Source: Lacunisphaera sp.
Lineage (GTDB): Bacteria; Verrucomicrobiota; Verrucomicrobiia; Opitutales; Opitutaceae
Assembly (NCBI GenBank): GCA_029945855.1
Contig: JAQSDJ010000048.1
Coordinates: forward strand, 1 to 59,018
DNA: 59,018 nucleotides
Reading direction: 5' to 3'
This document shows positions 10,286 through 57,713 of this stretch, piece by piece. The notes beneath the pieces are model-generated. The model saw only the letters and a program-made list of their open reading frames with translations, was not told the DNA's origin and did not search any database. A program made the translations under genes and the position numbers. Each line of letters opens with the position of its first letter. Within the stretch, counting starts at the first letter, position 1.

Positions 10286-10420
10286 CGGCAAAATCTGCCT
10301 GCTCCGATCCCGCAGGCCGCAGCCGGGCCCGGATCCGGTCGGCCCGGCCACGGAGTTAATTATATCTCACTTCGCCCGAGCGGTTTGCAGCCCCACCCTC
10401 GCGGCTGGCACGAACCCTGA
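10286..10420 (+). promoter_or_regulatory. Candidate sigma54-type promoter with upstream palindrome for flgB operon
   Basis: CGGCAAAATCTGCCT palindrome at 10286-10300, GAGTTAATTAT 10353-10363, CGGTTTGCAG 10381-10390, TGGCACG at 10406-10412 with CTGA at the -12 position (10417-10420). Same layout as flhB and flgF promoters; -12 is non-canonical. Confidence 0.45.
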
Positions 10421-10435
10421 TTACAGGCCCGCATC

Positions 10436-10822
10436 ATGATCGACCCGTTGTTCCCCGCCGGCAATTACCAGATGGCGCTCAAGCTATTGGATGCGGCGGC
10501 TCTGCGGCAGGAGGCGATCGCGGCGAACATCGCCAATGCCGACACCCCGGGCTATCGCCGCCTCGATATCGCGCCGGACTTCGCCGAGCAGCTCAAGGCC
10601 CGCGTCACCAGCGGCGAGCTTTCCCGCACCGCCGACTCCCTCCAGCCCCGGCTCACCGAGGATGTCCACGCGCGCACCGTGCGCCCCGACGGCAACACCG
10701 TCGAGATCGAGCACGAGCTGCTCGTCATGAACCGCAACGCGGTGGAATACCAGTATCTCACCGAGCTCGTTTCCCGCAACATCAAGCAGCTCAAGCTGGC
10801 GATCTCCGGCCGCAACCTCTGA
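10436..10822 (+). CDS. flgB: Flagellar basal-body rod protein FlgB
   Basis: RQEAIAANIANADTPGYRRLDIAPDF; NTVEIEHELLVMNRNAVEYQYL. Confidence 0.93.
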   Translation: MIDPLFPAGNYQMALKLLDAAALRQEAIAANIANADTPGYRRLDIAPDFAEQLKARVTSGELSRTADSLQPRLTEDVHARTVRPDGNTVEIEHELLVMNRNAVEYQYLTELVSRNIKQLKLAISGRNL

Positions 10823-16194: not shown

Positions 16195-16646
16195 AACGTT
16201 TCTCCTTCTCCCTCCGTTCGGTGGCCGTGCTCCGGGGCCACCGCGAACAGCTCGCCCGCGACGTCTTCGCCGCCTCCGTCCACGCCTACGTCCAGGCCGA
16301 GGAACACCTCGCCCTCGTCCGCGCCCAGATCGCCGACCTCGGGCGGGTGCTGGCCGCCGGCCGCAGCGGGACCTTCCTCGCCGCCGACGCCGCCGCCCTC
16401 TTCCGCGTCTACCGCTCCGTCAGCGCCGCCGAGATGACCTCCGAGCGCGACGTCATCGAGAAGCGCGACGTGATGAAGCGGCGCCGCGCCGAATACCTCG
16501 AGGCCAACCGCCAGCTCAAGATCGTCCGCCAGCTCGAGGACAAGGCCCGCGCCCGCCATCGGGCCGAGACCCTGCGCCACGAACAGGCCGAGCTCGATGA
16601 TTTCGCCGGCTTCCGGGCCGCCCGCCCCTCCCTCCTTCCGTCATGA
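16191..16646 (+). CDS. fliJ: FliJ-like flagellar export protein
   Basis: Starts with FSFSLRSVAVLRGHREQLARD; coiled coil; overlaps fliI stop by 4 nt. Confidence 0.75.
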   Translation: MKRFSFSLRSVAVLRGHREQLARDVFAASVHAYVQAEEHLALVRAQIADLGRVLAAGRSGTFLAADAAALFRVYRSVSAAEMTSERDVIEKRDVMKRRRAEYLEANRQLKIVRQLEDKARARHRAETLRHEQAELDDFAGFRAARPSLLPS

Positions 16647-17257
16647 GCAAGCTCCTGCTGCAACCTCCCCTCGTCCTCGCGCTCGCGCTGTTGTCCAGCC
16701 TGGCCGCCGGCTTCGTGCCGCTCTGGCGCGCCGGCGACGCCCTCGTCGCCCGGGCGCTCGCCACGCGCCCCACGGCCGCCAAGGTGCAGAAGGCGCAGGG
16801 CTGGGATTTCTGGACCATCGAGATCGACAACCTCGCCGCCGAGCTGAAGGACGAGAAGGCCCGTGTGGCCAAGCAGGCCGAGCAGCTCGACCTGCGCGCC
16901 GCCCGCATCGCCGCCGAGTCGCAGGAACTCGAGGCCCTCCGCGGCAATGTCGAGGCCATGCGCCGGGAAATCGGCGAGAAGGTCATCGAGATCACCGCCG
17001 ACGAGGCCAGGAACCTCCGCGCCCTCTCCCAGACCTACGCCAACCTCTCCCCCCGGGCCGCCGTCGCCATCATCCGCGAACTCGACGACGCCACGACGGT
17101 GAAGATCCTTTCGCTGATGAAGGCCGACACGATCGGGCCCATCTTCGAGGAGATGAGCAAGACCGCCACGCCCGACGGCACGCTGGCGCGCCGCGCCGCG
17201 CTGCTTTCCGAAAAACTCCGCCTGATGAAGGCCGCCAAGGCCGCCCCCGCTTCCTGA
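16643..17257 (+). CDS. MotE-like periplasmic chaperone (MgtE-N domain)
   Basis: N-terminal TM, coiled coil, then LSPRAAVAIIRELDDATTVKILSLMKADTIGPIFEEMSK typical of MotE family; between fliJ and fliK. Confidence 0.7.
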   Translation: MSKLLLQPPLVLALALLSSLAAGFVPLWRAGDALVARALATRPTAAKVQKAQGWDFWTIEIDNLAAELKDEKARVAKQAEQLDLRAARIAAESQELEALRGNVEAMRREIGEKVIEITADEARNLRALSQTYANLSPRAAVAIIRELDDATTVKILSLMKADTIGPIFEEMSKTATPDGTLARRAALLSEKLRLMKAAKAAPAS

Positions 17258-17301
17258 CCCGATTCTCTCCGGCGCACAGGGAGGTCGCGCCGTTACGTTC
17301 C

Positions 17302-18810
17302 ATGGATGGACGCCGGCATGACCCTTCCATCCCCTCCACCCCCTCCCTCGCCCCCGGCAACGAAGCCGCGGGCCTCGACGCCCTGGCCGCGGCGTGCGCC
17401 GCATTCACCGGCACCCCCGCCGGTCCCGGGTTCCCGGCCGTGCCGCCCAACGGCGCGACCAGCGAACCGGCCCCGGACTTTGCCCAGCTGATGATGCCGC
17501 GCGTGACACCGGCCGGCGACGCGACCCTTTTGCCGACCGCGGTGCCGCCGCCCGCCGGCCAGATCGCCCCCGGTTCCGCGACCCGCCTGAAACTGGCCGC
17601 CGCCACTCCAAGCGGGGCCGACCCGCTCACCCGCGAGCAGCTGGAAGCCGCCGCGGCCATGCTGGCCCCGGCCACCCCGATGACGACCCTACCGCCCCCC
17701 GCGGCCGAGCCCACCTTGTCACCCGCGAGCGCCGCGATTGCCCCCGTGGCCACCCCCCACGCCGCCGACCCCAACCCCCCCCGCCCCCCCACCCCCGCCG
17801 CCCCCCCCCCCGCCGCCGCCCTGCGCGCCACCACCACCGGCATCGGCCCCAGCCTCACCGTGTCGGACCCGCCGGCCGCGACTCCCTTGCCGGCAGCCAG
17901 CCCGACCACTTTCGCCGGAGAAATCCCGGCCTCGCCGGCCGGCAACATGGCCGGCCAGGAGTTCAATTCCCCCGATGATACGGCGGCATTGCCGGCGGCC
18001 GCCGCGACCGCCCCGGTGGTGCTCCCGCAACCGGACCTGTCTCCAACGGACGGAGCCAGGATCTCCGGGGTGGCAAAAAATGCCGCCTCGCCGGTCCTGC
18101 TCGCGAATCCCGCAACGGAAACGAACTCTTCCACCATTAAAAAGATTCTAAGTGTTGAGGATGCGGATGATGCAGAGCCACAGGCGAATGTTGGCATCAC
18201 CGTTGCTAAACCGGATCCCGTTATGGCCACCCACCTTCCCGAACGCCCGACCGTCGCCGACCTGGTCGTGCAGTCCTTCGTTCCGGGAAACCGTCCCGAG
18301 GCCTCCGCGCCGCTGGCGGACATCCGCGAACACCGTCCCGCCGTGATCGCCCAGCGCGCCGTCGAGGCCGTGGTGCAGGTGGTCGAGACCCAGGCCGCCG
18401 CCCGCCTGCAACCGGCACCGGGCGTGCAGTTGCACCTGAAACTCGGCGGCGAAGACATCGCCATCCGCGTCGAACTGCGCGAAGGCAACGTGCACACACA
18501 GTTCCGCACCGATTCCAACGAGGTCCGCCAGGCCATCGCGCACGAATGGAGCATCCTGCGGGCCGAGTCGCCCGAACGCACCCTCCGTTATCTGGAGCCG
18601 GAATTTTCCGCCGACCGCCCCGCTTCCAGCCCGGGCAGCGACGGCCGGCAGGGCGCCGCCTCGCACCAGCAGTCCCGTGCCCCCCAGCCCGACATCTTTG
18701 GTGCCATCGGCCGGTCCTATCCCTACCACCGGACGGAAGCCGATTCGCCCGTGCGGGAGATCGCCGCCCGCTTGCTGCCCACCTCCGTCCATCTTTCCGC
18801 CCTCGCCTGA
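17302..18810 (+). CDS. fliK: Flagellar hook-length control protein FliK
   Basis: Pro/Ala-rich N-terminal region and C-terminal QLHLKLGGEDIAIRVELREGNVHTQFRTDSNEVRQAIAHEWSIL (Flg_hook domain). Confidence 0.8.
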   Translation: MDGRRHDPSIPSTPSLAPGNEAAGLDALAAACAAFTGTPAGPGFPAVPPNGATSEPAPDFAQLMMPRVTPAGDATLLPTAVPPPAGQIAPGSATRLKLAAATPSGADPLTREQLEAAAAMLAPATPMTTLPPPAAEPTLSPASAAIAPVATPHAADPNPPRPPTPAAPPPAAALRATTTGIGPSLTVSDPPAATPLPAASPTTFAGEIPASPAGNMAGQEFNSPDDTAALPAAAATAPVVLPQPDLSPTDGARISGVAKNAASPVLLANPATETNSSTIKKILSVEDADDAEPQANVGITVAKPDPVMATHLPERPTVADLVVQSFVPGNRPEASAPLADIREHRPAVIAQRAVEAVVQVVETQAAARLQPAPGVQLHLKLGGEDIAIRVELREGNVHTQFRTDSNEVRQAIAHEWSILRAESPERTLRYLEPEFSADRPASSPGSDGRQGAASHQQSRAPQPDIFGAIGRSYPYHRTEADSPVREIAARLLPTSVHLSALA

Positions 18811-24455: not shown

Positions 24456-24592
24456 GGGCAATTTTTGCCCGACGGATGGCGGGAAAAAATCCCGCGGACG
24501 GAAATCATCTCCGCATAAAACTCGTAAAGTTTTAATACGTTGATGATCCGCCGGTAGCACAGGCCCCCCCCACCTTGGCATCAGCGTTGCAT
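24456..24592 (+). promoter_or_regulatory. Candidate sigma54 promoter and upstream palindromes for flhB operon
   Basis: GGGCAATTTTTGCCC 24456-24470; GCGGGAAAAAATCCCGC 24479-24495; AAAGTTTTAAT 24526-24536; CCGGTAGCA 24551-24559; TTGGCATCAGCGTTGCAT (-24 GG at 24577-24578, -12 GC at 24589-24590) with canonical spacing. Confidence 0.65.
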
Positions 24593-24608: not shown

Positions 24609-25718
24609 ATGTCCGATCAAGACCAAGACAAAGACCAACAGACAGAGCAACCGACCGAGAAGCGTCTCGCGGAGGCAATGGAGCAGGGTCAGTTCGCCAA
24701 GAGTCCGGAGCTCACGGTGGTGATGATTTTGGCGGCGGCGCTCGGGGTGCTCGCCTTCACGGCCGGCTCGAGCAGCGAAACGGTGGCCCAGTATGCGATC
24801 GGGATTTTCACGGGCTTCGCCCGCATGCACGTCGAGCAGGGCACGATCACCGCGACGCTGACCCAGATGATCATGGCCGGCGGCCAGGCGATGTTGCCGA
24901 TCCTCGTCGCCTGCGTCGGCGCGGCCATGCTGGCCGGCGGCCTGCAAAGCGGCTTCCGCCTCTCCCCCAAGGCCGTGTCCTTCCGGCCCGAGGCGCTGAA
25001 CCCCACCAACGGCTTCGGCCGGGTCTTCAACAAGGCCGCCCTGGTGCGCTCCGGCCTCGACGTGCTCAAGGTCATCGCCATCGGCTTCTCCCTTTATCTC
25101 GGCGCCCGCACCCTCCTCCAGGACCCGCTGTTTACCGCGCCCGTCGAGGCCGCCTACCTCTCCACCTTTTTGCTCCAGGCCTCGCTGACCTTTCTCACCC
25201 GGCTGCTCTTCTCGCTCGGGCTCATCGCCGCGATCAGCTACGGCTGGGAAAAATACAAGACCGCGCGCGACCTGATGATGACGCGCCAGCAGGTCAAGGA
25301 CGAGCACCGCAACAACGAGGGCAACGCCCAGATGAAGGCCGCCATGCGCCGCATGGCCCGCCGCCTCATGCAAAAGCAGATGCTGGCCGTCGTGCCGACC
25401 GCCGATGTCATCGTCACGAATCCCACGCACTACGCCGTCGCCCTCAAATATGAGCGCGGGCGCGACCAGGCCCCGGTCATCCTGGCGAAGGGCGAGAACC
25501 AGTTTGCCCGCCGCATCAAGGCCCTCGGCGCCGCCCACGGCGTCCCCACGGTCGAGAACAAGCCCGTGGCGCGCCTCCTCTTCGCCCTCGGCGCCGTCGG
25601 CGAGACCATCCCGCCCCAGCTCTACCAGGCCGTGGCCGAGATCCTCGCCGTCGTCTACCGGCTGAACCGTTACTACTTCCACGAGCTGAAGTCCCGCCGC
25701 CTGGCGGCCGCCTCCTGA
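24609..25718 (+). CDS. flhB: Flagellar biosynthesis protein FlhB
   Basis: EQPTEKRLAEAMEQGQFAKSPEL; autocleavage site VTNPTHYAVALKYERG. Confidence 0.96.
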   Translation: MSDQDQDKDQQTEQPTEKRLAEAMEQGQFAKSPELTVVMILAAALGVLAFTAGSSSETVAQYAIGIFTGFARMHVEQGTITATLTQMIMAGGQAMLPILVACVGAAMLAGGLQSGFRLSPKAVSFRPEALNPTNGFGRVFNKAALVRSGLDVLKVIAIGFSLYLGARTLLQDPLFTAPVEAAYLSTFLLQASLTFLTRLLFSLGLIAAISYGWEKYKTARDLMMTRQQVKDEHRNNEGNAQMKAAMRRMARRLMQKQMLAVVPTADVIVTNPTHYAVALKYERGRDQAPVILAKGENQFARRIKALGAAHGVPTVENKPVARLLFALGAVGETIPPQLYQAVAEILAVVYRLNRYYFHELKSRRLAAAS

Positions 25719-31991: not shown

Positions 31992-32079
31992 GCCGGATCC
32001 GGATCACGTCTTTTGTCGGGGCGTCGCCCAAAGCGGCCGTTGGCCGGCCAATCTCCACTGGAGAGCCGCGCATCAAATG

Positions 32080-32152
32080 GTGGAACCTGTCCTCCGGACG
32101 GGTTGTTGGACACACGCCAAGGCAAACCGGTCACGGAGGACCGGTTCCACCT
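32080..32152. repeat. Intergenic inverted repeat (18-bp arms, one mismatch)
   Basis: GGTGGAACCTGTCCTCCG (32080-32097) vs reverse complement of CGGAGGACCGGTTCCACC (32135-32152). Confidence 0.8.
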
Positions 32153-32277
32153 CCCTCAACCGCTTGATCCCGGCTTGGTCAAAAGCTGCAGCTCATCACC
32201 GGCTGGAAGCCGGTGCAAGCCGGTGCCACCTCCGCTACGCAGACCACCGGGTCCAACGGACCGGCCTGCCGTCGCCC

Positions 32278-32426
32278 GGGCATTTTCTGCCAATCCCGCC
32301 CGGCAAATTTTGCCAGAGACGCCCGGGAGGTTCGGAGAATTCATGGGGCCAGGCACTAGAAAGTTTTTAAATCATTGGCCTGTGCCGGTTAGCAGTCGTG
32401 CCGCCCACCTTGGCACCGCTGTTGCT
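32278..32426 (+). promoter_or_regulatory. Candidate sigma54 promoter and upstream palindromes for flgF operon
   Basis: GGGCATTTTCTGCCA 32278-32292; CGGCAAATTTTGCCA 32301-32315; AAAGTTTTTAA 32360-32370; CCGGTTAGCAG 32385-32395; TTGGCACCGCTGTTGCT (-24 GG 32412-32413, -12 GC 32424-32425). Confidence 0.7.
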
Positions 32427-32440
32427 ATCCTTCGCCTCAG

Positions 32441-33193
32441 ATGAACATCGGGCTCTACCAAAGCGCTTCCACCCTGTCCGCCCTCGAGCGGTGGCAGGAC
32501 AGCGTTTCGCAGAACATCACCTCCGCGCAGACGACCGGTTACCGCAAGCGCACGGTGGAGTTCTCGACCGAGAGCGCCGGCAAATGGAACATCGATCCCC
32601 GCGGCCGCGCCGGCGACCCGGAGAACGAGGCCAACGCGCTGTTCACCCGCGTCACCAACGGCATCAATTTCCTCACCGGCGAAACCCAGCCCACGCGCCG
32701 GGAGCTCGATATCGCGATCCAGGGCGACGGCTTCTTCGAGGTCCAGCAGCCCGACGGCAGCAAAGCCTACACCCGCAGCGGCGAATTCCGTGTCCGCCCC
32801 GACCGCACTTTGGTCACCACCGGCGGCCTGGAGATCATGACCGAGGGCGGCTCGCCCATCACGTTGCTCCCCTCCGGCGGTGCGATCACCGTCAACCGGG
32901 ATGGCACCGTCTTTCAGGGCGACATCTCGCTCGGCAAACTCTCCATCCAGAAGTTCGCCCGTCCCGAGGCGCTCATCCCCGTCGCCGGCGGCATGTTCCT
33001 CCCTTCCGCCGGCGCCGGCATCCAGTCGGTCGACGAACCCGAGCTCATGCAGGGCTACCTCGAGCAGAGCAATGTCCAGGCGCTCCGCGAGATGGTCGAT
33101 CTCGTCCTCATTGCCCGCGCCTACGAGGCCAACCAGAAGGTCATCACCTCTGTCGACCAGCAGATGCAGAAGACCCTCGAAGCCCTCGGCTGA
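32441..33193 (+). CDS. flgF: Flagellar basal-body rod protein FlgF
   Basis: QDSVSQNITSAQTTGYRKRTVEF; QGYLEQSNVQALREMVDLVLIARAYEANQKVITSVDQQMQKTLEALG. Confidence 0.9.
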   Translation: MNIGLYQSASTLSALERWQDSVSQNITSAQTTGYRKRTVEFSTESAGKWNIDPRGRAGDPENEANALFTRVTNGINFLTGETQPTRRELDIAIQGDGFFEVQQPDGSKAYTRSGEFRVRPDRTLVTTGGLEIMTEGGSPITLLPSGGAITVNRDGTVFQGDISLGKLSIQKFARPEALIPVAGGMFLPSAGAGIQSVDEPELMQGYLEQSNVQALREMVDLVLIARAYEANQKVITSVDQQMQKTLEALG

Positions 33194-55839: not shown

Positions 55840-56676
55840 CTACTGAAGTCGCTTAGCGTTGTTGTTCTTCGATAGACTGCGCAATTGAAAGATGGCCGCC
55901 TCATTCAATCGGACCAGGCGGTCGGCTTGTGGAAGGCCTTGCCGAATCAACACTGAATTGACGCTTTCCAGATTGGACATGACAATAAGTTGCTCCGCTG
56001 TCGCTTGGTCGCGGATGTTTTCACTGGCCGGCGCGCCCGGATGGGCGGCGCGCCACTGTCTGGCGGTCTGCCCGAAAAGCGCTACATTGAGCAGGTCCGC
56101 TTCATCCGCGTAAATAAACGATGCCTGCTGATTAGTTATGCTGGCTGGTATCAATTCATCCCTGATGGCGTCGGTGTGGATCTGATAGTTGATCTTGGCG
56201 AGGGTGCGCTGGAGGTTCCACCCGAGTTTCAGACGATCGCTTTCGTCGTTCTTTAGGCGCTGAAATTCCTTGATCAGGTAGAGTTTGAATTCGACCGATA
56301 CCCAGGCCGCGAACTCGAAGGCGATGTCTTTATGGGCGTAGGTTCCGCCATAACGTCCTTGCTTGGCGATGATACCGATTGCCCCTGTTTTCTCGATCCA
56401 TTCCTTCGGCGTTAGTATGAAGCGATTCAGGCCGGCCTGAACCCTAAACCCGTCAAATTCCACAGGATTAAACGCCGGATTATTGAGGCGCTCCCATACC
56501 CCAAGATACTCGATCGTGTTTCGGTTGCGCAGCCAGGTCCGAATAATGTCATCCATGCCTTCCTGATTTTTGTGGCGAGCAATGTCCGTGATGCAGATGT
56601 AGTCATCCTTGTTTACGGATAAAACACGAATGGCGGTTCCTTGCACGTCGATGGCGCTGCTTTGTTTCTTGGTCAT
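55840..56676 (-). CDS. KilA-N domain-containing protein (IS passenger)
   Basis: IDVQGTAIRVLSVNKDDYICITDIARHKN...RNTIEYLGVWERLNNPAFNPVEFDGFRVQAGLNRFILTPKEWIEKTGAIGIIAKQGRYGGTYAHKDIAFEFAAWVSVEFKLYLIKEFQRL. Alternative upstream start at 56772. Confidence 0.92.
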   Translation of the reverse strand: MTKKQSSAIDVQGTAIRVLSVNKDDYICITDIARHKNQEGMDDIIRTWLRNRNTIEYLGVWERLNNPAFNPVEFDGFRVQAGLNRFILTPKEWIEKTGAIGIIAKQGRYGGTYAHKDIAFEFAAWVSVEFKLYLIKEFQRLKNDESDRLKLGWNLQRTLAKINYQIHTDAIRDELIPASITNQQASFIYADEADLLNVALFGQTARQWRAAHPGAPASENIRDQATAEQLIVMSNLESVNSVLIRQGLPQADRLVRLNEAAIFQLRSLSKNNNAKRLQ

Positions 56677-56768
56677 GTGTATCAGGGGTATTCTAAACCC
56701 GGCCAATTGCACGGGTTTGGAAGTTGTTGATATAGTGGGTGTAAATATGCTGTCCACCCATAATAGCA

Positions 56769-57713
56769 TCATAGTCGTGCCCGTGTGACCGGGCCGTTCC
56801 TCAGCACTTGAGTCAGGAGCCGATGAAACAGAAGCCCGCGGCTGTCGGAGGCGCGCCGATTAAATCGAAACACAAACTCATCCAGATAGGACTGGAGCCG
56901 ATGGTGGCTGACTGAACCTTGGTGGGTGCCGAGTAGCCAGCGCTTCAGCAAGGCTGCCACTCGGTGAACGTGCGGGAGCAGGTTCTTGCCAACCTGCGGG
57001 GTGTGACGCGAGACCGTGTGTCGATAGCCGCTTTTCGGCAGACCGATATAGCTGCTGAGTCCATCGGTGACGACCTCGCTACCTTTCTCTACCAGGTCCT
57101 CAACGGTGCTGATCAGGGTGACCGCAGTAGCATCAGGGATAACAACCAGGCGGATCCGCCCCATGCGCCGACCTCTGATTTCAGTGGCGATCAAGACCAG
57201 TGACTTGCCGGCTGCACCGCGGCCACGCTTGCCGGTTTTGACGCCGCCGATGAAGGTTTCGTCGACCTCCACTTCACCGGTCAGTTTCGTGCGGGATGGC
57301 ACGACGGCCGCCCGCCGCATGCGGTGCATCCACTCCCAACTGGTGTGGTAACTACCGAAGCCAAGCGACCGTTGGAGGCTAAGGGCACTGCCGCCGTTCT
57401 TCTGGCTGCAAAGATGCCACACGGCCTCAAGCCAATCTCGGATCGGCTTACGTGTTCGGTGAAGGAGCGTCCCGCAGGTCGCAGAAACCCACTTTCGGCA
57501 GGCCTTGCAGCGGCGCAGGCCTGGCGCCGCTTCCCAGGCTTCAATCCCGCTGCACCTGGGGCACGCGAATCCATCCTGCCAACGAATCGCTGCCAGATAA
57601 CCAAGGCAGTCCGACTCTTCGCGGAACCATTGTGAGAACTCAGGTCGATCCCGCGGGAACGGTGGCGTAAGGGCCGCCAGGTTGGCTGCCCGATGTCTGG
57701 CCGGGGCGTGCAT
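56769..57713 (-). CDS. IS1595 (ISXO2-like) family transposase
   Basis: Zinc ribbon CPRC...CKAC; GEVEVDETFIGGVKTGKRGRGAAGKSLV; VTDGLSSY; HRLQSYLDEFVFRFNRR. Confidence 0.93.
   Translation of the reverse strand: MHAPARHRAANLAALTPPFPRDRPEFSQWFREESDCLGYLAAIRWQDGFACPRCSGIEAWEAAPGLRRCKACRKWVSATCGTLLHRTRKPIRDWLEAVWHLCSQKNGGSALSLQRSLGFGSYHTSWEWMHRMRRAAVVPSRTKLTGEVEVDETFIGGVKTGKRGRGAAGKSLVLIATEIRGRRMGRIRLVVIPDATAVTLISTVEDLVEKGSEVVTDGLSSYIGLPKSGYRHTVSRHTPQVGKNLLPHVHRVAALLKRWLLGTHQGSVSHHRLQSYLDEFVFRFNRRASDSRGLLFHRLLTQVLRNGPVTRARL

Follow-up and report, generated by a model that had tools for sequence, protein, structure and literature searches.

A predicted dyad operator at a nearly fixed distance from sigma54-type flagellar promoters in Opitutaceae

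In Lacunisphaera sp. and its relatives among the Opitutaceae, a family of aquatic and soil Verrucomicrobiota that has been little studied, flagellar operons are preceded by a -24/-12 promoter and, upstream of it, by an inverted repeat of 31 bp whose centre lies at -57 with respect to this promoter. We consider it about 80% probable that these operons constitute a sigma54-dependent regulon and that the repeat is the operator of one NtrC-type activator, which would act from a close and nearly invariant position. The window, i.e. the whole stretch of 59,018 nt that was analysed, is the entire contig C48 of a draft genome of 5.0 Mb (99% complete). By its FlhB this genome is closest to named records of Opitutus sp., Candidatus Didemnitutus sp. 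and Opitutaceae MAGs, in keeping with its placement in the Opitutaceae. The promoters located in it, together with the gene of the proposed activator, are given in Table 1.

Promoters and predicted operators in the window

A first-pass annotation had proposed that three operon heads, those of flhB, flgF and flgB, share a sigma54-type promoter with an AT box and a CGGTTwGCA box upstream. The sequences quoted there are indeed present, at 24526-24592 for flhB (TGGCATCAGCGTTGC at 24576), 32360-32428 for flgF (TGGCACCGCTGTTGC at 32411) and 10353-10422 for flgB (TGGCACGAACCCTGA at 10406). All three heads were confirmed; a fourth site, at 18192 in front of fliK, had been missed. Also the description of flhB and flgF as canonical and of flgB as carrying GA at -12 holds in the window sequence: flhB, flgF and fliK have an exact -24 GG and -12 GC at standard spacing, flgB is without the C at -12. 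At flhB, flgF and flgB, the GCA that belongs to the second box in each case stands exactly 16 nt from TGGCA.

Table 1. Predicted operators, promoter elements and genes in the window, and the activator gene on contig C35
Feature	Sequence	Position	Strand	Remarks
Predicted dyad operator before flgB	TTATATCTCACTT-CGCCC-GAGCGGTTTGCAG	10360-10390	+	Dyad-matrix rank 7 of 117,910 alone, 3 combined
-24/-12 element, flgB promoter	TGGCACGAACCCTGATT	10406-10422	+	-12 C replaced by A
flgB		10436-10822	+	TIGR01396, 82.6 bits, over its cut-off
Operator position before fliK	TTCTAAGTGTTG (left arm)	18146-18176	+	Left arm recognisable, right arm degenerate; dyad score -5.4; combined rank 4
-24/-12 element, fliK promoter	TGGCATCACCGTTGCTA	18192-18208	+	E=4.9e-4
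fliK, from proposed true start ATG 18223		18223-18810	+	Pfam Flg_hook, E=5e-4, under curated cut-off
Predicted dyad operator before flhB	TTTTAATACGTTG-ATGAT-CCGCCGGTAGCAC	24530-24560	+	Centre -57; dyad-matrix rank 2 of 117,910
-24/-12 element, flhB promoter	TGGCATCAGCGTTGCAT	24576-24592	+	
flhB		24609-25718	+	Pfam PF01312, E=1.2e-99
Predicted dyad operator before flgF	TTTTAAATCATTG-GCCTG-TGCCGGTTAGCAG	32365-32395	+	Dyad-matrix rank 1 of 117,910
-24/-12 element, flgF promoter	TGGCACCGCTGTTGCTA	32411-32427	+	E=4.1e-8, outside training set
flgF		32441-33193	+	TIGR02490, E=1.2e-45, 155.8 bits vs cut-off 178.5
Response-regulator-type (NtrC-type) sigma54 activator		contig C35, 656-2122	+	

For the window scan, an upstream matrix and a promoter matrix were derived from flhB promoters in other genomes, the window sequence being excluded. 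For the combined architecture, the best four of 117,910 window positions were those of flhB (49.7 bits), flgF (44.5), flgB (21.2) and fliK (20.3), while the fifth reached 1.3 bits. For the -24/-12 element alone, the window showed no enrichment (15 matches with at most one mismatch vs 12.8 expected). A mismatch pattern composed of box and promoter and run on 29 genomes gave about as many matches as the reversed-pattern control, i.e. background overall; its best matches were flagellar and pointed to conserved sites. The whole-genome scan, which the first-pass annotation had suggested, used a sequence-only profile built on 40 flhB promoters, among them that of the window. It brought flhB (E=3e-10, training set), flgF (E=3.5e-6) and fliK (E=0.046) over the noise, to which the next match belongs (E=0.49). 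The profile scan of the same-genus genomes lacking flhB (G009, G013, G015) and of G108 found nothing below E=0.07.

The deviating -12 position before flgB is a trait of the clade and not a reading error. Besides the A in the genome studied here, the C is replaced by T in G003 and G182 and by G in G017 (L149, L151, L166), and it is present in G031, G150 and G177. The flgB promoters without it keep the -24 element and the TG at -14/-13. In case of fliK, the promoter site lies 17 nt before ATG 18223, and the same promoter is found ahead of fliK in relatives, including genomes of the same genus. This ATG is probably the true start, the long open frame 16597-18810 beginning too early. Two further stretches of the window may be mentioned: the motB/flgF interval contains a repeat-like intergenic sequence at 32050-32240 (GGAGGACCGGTTCCACC and similar), and at 55840-57713 on the minus strand, at the end of the flagellar contig, a transposase of IS1595 type adjoins a KilA-N domain protein.

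An inverted repeat in a nearly invariant register

Since sites collected with CGGTTwGCA would be biased, conservation was measured on flhB upstream DNA that had been gathered by protein homology, regardless of boxes. By this homology flhB occurs in 83 out of 150 genomes of the family. In 61 upstream regions, 58 of them from the 150-genome sample, a strong -24/-12 site was located 15-45 nt ahead of the start; the other three came from genomes of the same genus to which the box pattern had first led, and are the exceptions to homology-based collection. This alignment has conserved columns at -76 to -73 (AAAA), -71 to -67 (TTTAA), -64 (C) and -62 to -60 (YTG), and further at -53/-52 (AR), -50 (G) and -47 to -43 (TARCR). 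From -42 to -30 nothing is conserved, then follows the promoter. The repeat can be summarized approximately as YGYTAAnYCRYTG-N5-CARYGRnTTARCR.

The columns are mirror images about -57, with a symmetry score of 7.96 compared to -0.16 +/- 1.24 for the column-permutation null (0 of 2000); this score is not approached with any other centre. Therefore, the two boxes are arms of one operator. The AT box and the CGGTTwGCA box, both enclosed by the flhB dyad, are real and conserved, although not as the two separate elements they had been taken for. For the CGGTTwGCA box, which had not been recognised, the best explanation is that it forms the downstream arm of the dyad operator of an activator.

In a leave-one-out test over about 110 upstream positions, the best dyad match fell exactly in the -57 register in 55 of 61 flhB promoters, where 0.55 would be expected. 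In four more, belonging to one clade, it was found at +1, i.e. one base nearer to the promoter. Named records outside the training set gave the same picture (11 of 13 in the -57 register and two at +1); this count leaves out L394, whose best promoter match lies 131 nt upstream in coding sequence and has no dyad. A changed operator, TTATAAATAYATG-N5-CATGTATTTATAA in the clearest members, and a shift of 1 bp towards the promoter were seen in the clade of G201, G206, G229 and G278 (L132, L133, L134, L137). The activator of G201, G206 and G229 has an altered first HTH helix (RAQVVELLG).

Activator sites of sigma54 systems are usually movable. The site described here is an inverted repeat, as enhancer sites are, but it is neither distant (about 80-200 bp) nor flexible in position, its centre staying nearly invariantly at -57. 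Such spacing suggests a close, rigidly phased site rather than loose DNA looping.

The same geometry was found with a second activator, the L004-type, a GAFTDA variant (L310-L319, L257 on G084:C9, L303) that occurs in 60 of the 150 genomes and has no tie to flagella. Ahead of its own operon there is a sigma54 promoter with a related dyad in the same -57 register (about ten promoters). The core of this repeat is different, TTTATCTGCYTG with a matching right arm, having GC in place of CR. A common -57 position for two activators whose cores differ is as expected of activator operators and supports this reading of the repeat. On the sequences compared, it suggests a general geometric rule in Opitutaceae. 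Tentatively, and at somewhat less than even odds, one may go further: sigma54 activators of this family, with at least two specificities, would use a rigid -57 dyad beside the polymerase and without looping, as a fixed-geometry promoter class in which the operator is a part of the promoter and not a movable enhancer.

The activator and its regulon among relatives

Both rpoN and a flagella-linked sigma54 activator are encoded elsewhere in the genome, and the boxes are kept upstream of these operons across Opitutaceae; these findings support the sigma54-type reading of the first-pass annotation. The rpoN gene (G000:C154:5974-6450, E=3.5e-59) has counterparts such that 28 out of 29 genomes, this one included, possess it. 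Six sigma54-activator-like proteins are encoded in the genome. The one on contig C35 has the complete NtrC-type organisation: the receiver has its acidic pocket, Asp, Thr and Lys all in place, the AAA+ domain carries GAFTGA, and the HTH is of Fis type.

Orthologs of the C35 activator were called at more than 500 bits, compared to about 340-360 for paralogs. They are present in 79 of 83 flhB-positive and in 6 of 67 flhB-negative genomes of the family (Fisher p=7e-30). Elsewhere in the order, 21 of 22 flhB-positive and none of six flhB-negative genomes examined have one. In G003, G084, G150, G151, G164, G180 and G031 the activator gene is located 8-32 kb from flhB. Its recognition helix is nearly invariant among the orthologs seen, and it is unchanged also in G201, G206 and G229, where the operator is changed. 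Flagellates outside Opitutaceae possess the activator and match the promoter model weakly or not at all; therefore, activator and exact operator are not tied to each other throughout the order. Upstream of the activator-gene orthologs no convincing sigma54 site that would indicate autoregulation was found. The next gene on the small contig C35 (L264) is cheX, and no kinase gene was seen adjacent to the activator on this contig. Behind the ortholog in G150 come genes for a two-receiver protein and CheA. As a CheA is also encoded near the start of the window, C35 probably adjoins this end of the window in the chromosome.

When applied to relatives, the flhB-trained model has matches in front of flgB, flgF, fliK, fliJ, flhF, flgD, fliO-like, fliP and a fliA-like gene, several of these identities having been judged by eye from protein similarity. 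A profile match at E<=0.02 was obtained in 65 of the 83 flhB-positive and 7 of the 67 flhB-negative family genomes. One of the latter, G173, has its match before flgF and is therefore a flagellate with missing flhB. In G158 (C1:3755808, L296) the flagellar promoter model matches strongly about 150 nt ahead of the gene of a fliA-like sigma factor, which suggests a cascade from sigma54 to sigma28. A sigma54 promoter with a dyad of flagellar type was also noted in front of dnaK in G158 (L297) and G172 (L305), and further matches precede genes for secreted proteins and ABC permeases (G084, G184, G178). Because of these few matches, the motif is not strictly flagellar.

Mechanism, alternative readings and known systems

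In the mechanism proposed here, dimers of the C35 response regulator, which would have to be phosphorylated, bind the repeat at -57. The bound activator would oligomerise, and its GAFTGA loop would at short range remodel the sigma54-polymerase waiting at -24/-12, so that transcription would start here and depend on rpoN. By this, genes for rod, hook and export would be switched on, in at least one relative also the gene of the fliA-like sigma factor.

The repeat might instead be the site of another dimeric protein, such as a repressor, an architectural protein or a co-activator, that is common to the sigma54 promoters of the family, with the activator acting from elsewhere or needing no specific site. 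A related repeat that occupies this position ahead of the operon of a different activator would agree with this, and so would the unchanged recognition helix in the clade with changed operator and the L001-type sigma54 activator, which has no recognisable Fis-type HTH. However, the two regulons differ right at the symmetric core, CR vs GC at -64/-63 and at the mirror positions, which fits better to two specificities, and the flagellar repeat follows the flagellar activator and the flagellar genes. We regard a different protein as unlikely. It is very improbable that A-tract and AT-rich arm form a UP element or an IHF-type bend site, with the GGTTAGCA box an accident of common descent: the A-rich columns -76 to -73 do lie outside the dyad, but in 61 promoters the GGTTAGCA box is the mirror image of the other arm in each column, and it is found ahead of non-homologous operons. 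The A-tract may be an accessory element.

The consensus of sigma28 promoters is TAAAGTTT-N11-GCCGATAA, to which the succession of AAAGTTTT and GCCGGTTA bears a superficial likeness. The upstream boxes might accordingly be a second promoter (-35/-10) of sigma28 or sigma70 type, in tandem with the sigma54 site. Yet the gap is about 16 nt and not 11, the consensus thus not being matched; moreover, the conserved columns form a dyad, what promoters do not, and such a promoter gives no reason for the invariant phase to -24. This reading was rejected on spacing and symmetry and appears extremely improbable.

An operator of the C35 activator can be compared with those of known flagellar regulators. 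FleQ and FlrA are sigma54 activators of flagellar genes as well, and FleQ acts from sites near the promoter; neither is known to have a phosphorylatable receiver, and their sites are not known to keep one fixed spacing. The FlrA-type operator, GTCA-N6-TGAC (PMC4641369), differs from the Opitutaceae repeat. FlrC, FleR and FlgR resemble the C35 activator in having a receiver, a GAFTGA-bearing AAA+ domain and an HTH of Fis type, and the AAA+ domain of FlrC is among the solved relatives. The genes on which these proteins act are middle genes, in a hierarchy headed by FleQ/FlrA, whereas the C35 activator seems to face flgB, flhB, flgF and fliK together. Flagellar NtrC-type sigma54 activators with an inverted-repeat operator are also FlbD of Caulobacter (ftr sites) and DVU1063 of Desulfovibrio, with CCCGGCA-N5-TGCCGGG and GGCA-N4-TGCC, the arms 4-5 bp apart (PMC3333781). 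The C35 activator has FlbD among its best NCBIfam matches; with 397.7 of 750 bits, it stays below the FlbD equivalog cut-off. The core found here, CRYTG-N5-CARYG, is different from the FlbD operator GGCA-N5-TGCC (PMC3333781). In D. vulgaris most downstream-lying sites are DVU1063 sites (PMC4641369), in contrast to the Opitutaceae sites, which occupy a single fixed position upstream.

For the class Opitutia, sigma54 has earlier been predicted to control motility genes as well as ABC-type permeases (COG0577) (PMC12316311). The passages on this control treat the -24/-12 promoters, and operator, cognate activator and spacing were not found in them. Closeness alone is not new, because in D. vulgaris the sigma54 promoters of the largest class have an activator site no further than 100 nt away (PMC4641369); the new part is the nearly invariant spacing. 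A search of the open literature brought up no description of the operator, the activator or the spacing, and no experimental work on flagellar regulation in Verrucomicrobiota.

Summarizing, it is now possible to name for the flagella of Verrucomicrobiota a multi-operon regulon together with a likely master activator and the operator of the latter, and a box that had not been recognised becomes a candidate binding site that can be tested. The nearly invariant -57 spacing extends over dozens of genera, is common to two activators and is unusual for sigma54 systems. This geometry offers a naturally occurring case on which activation without looping of the DNA can be tested.
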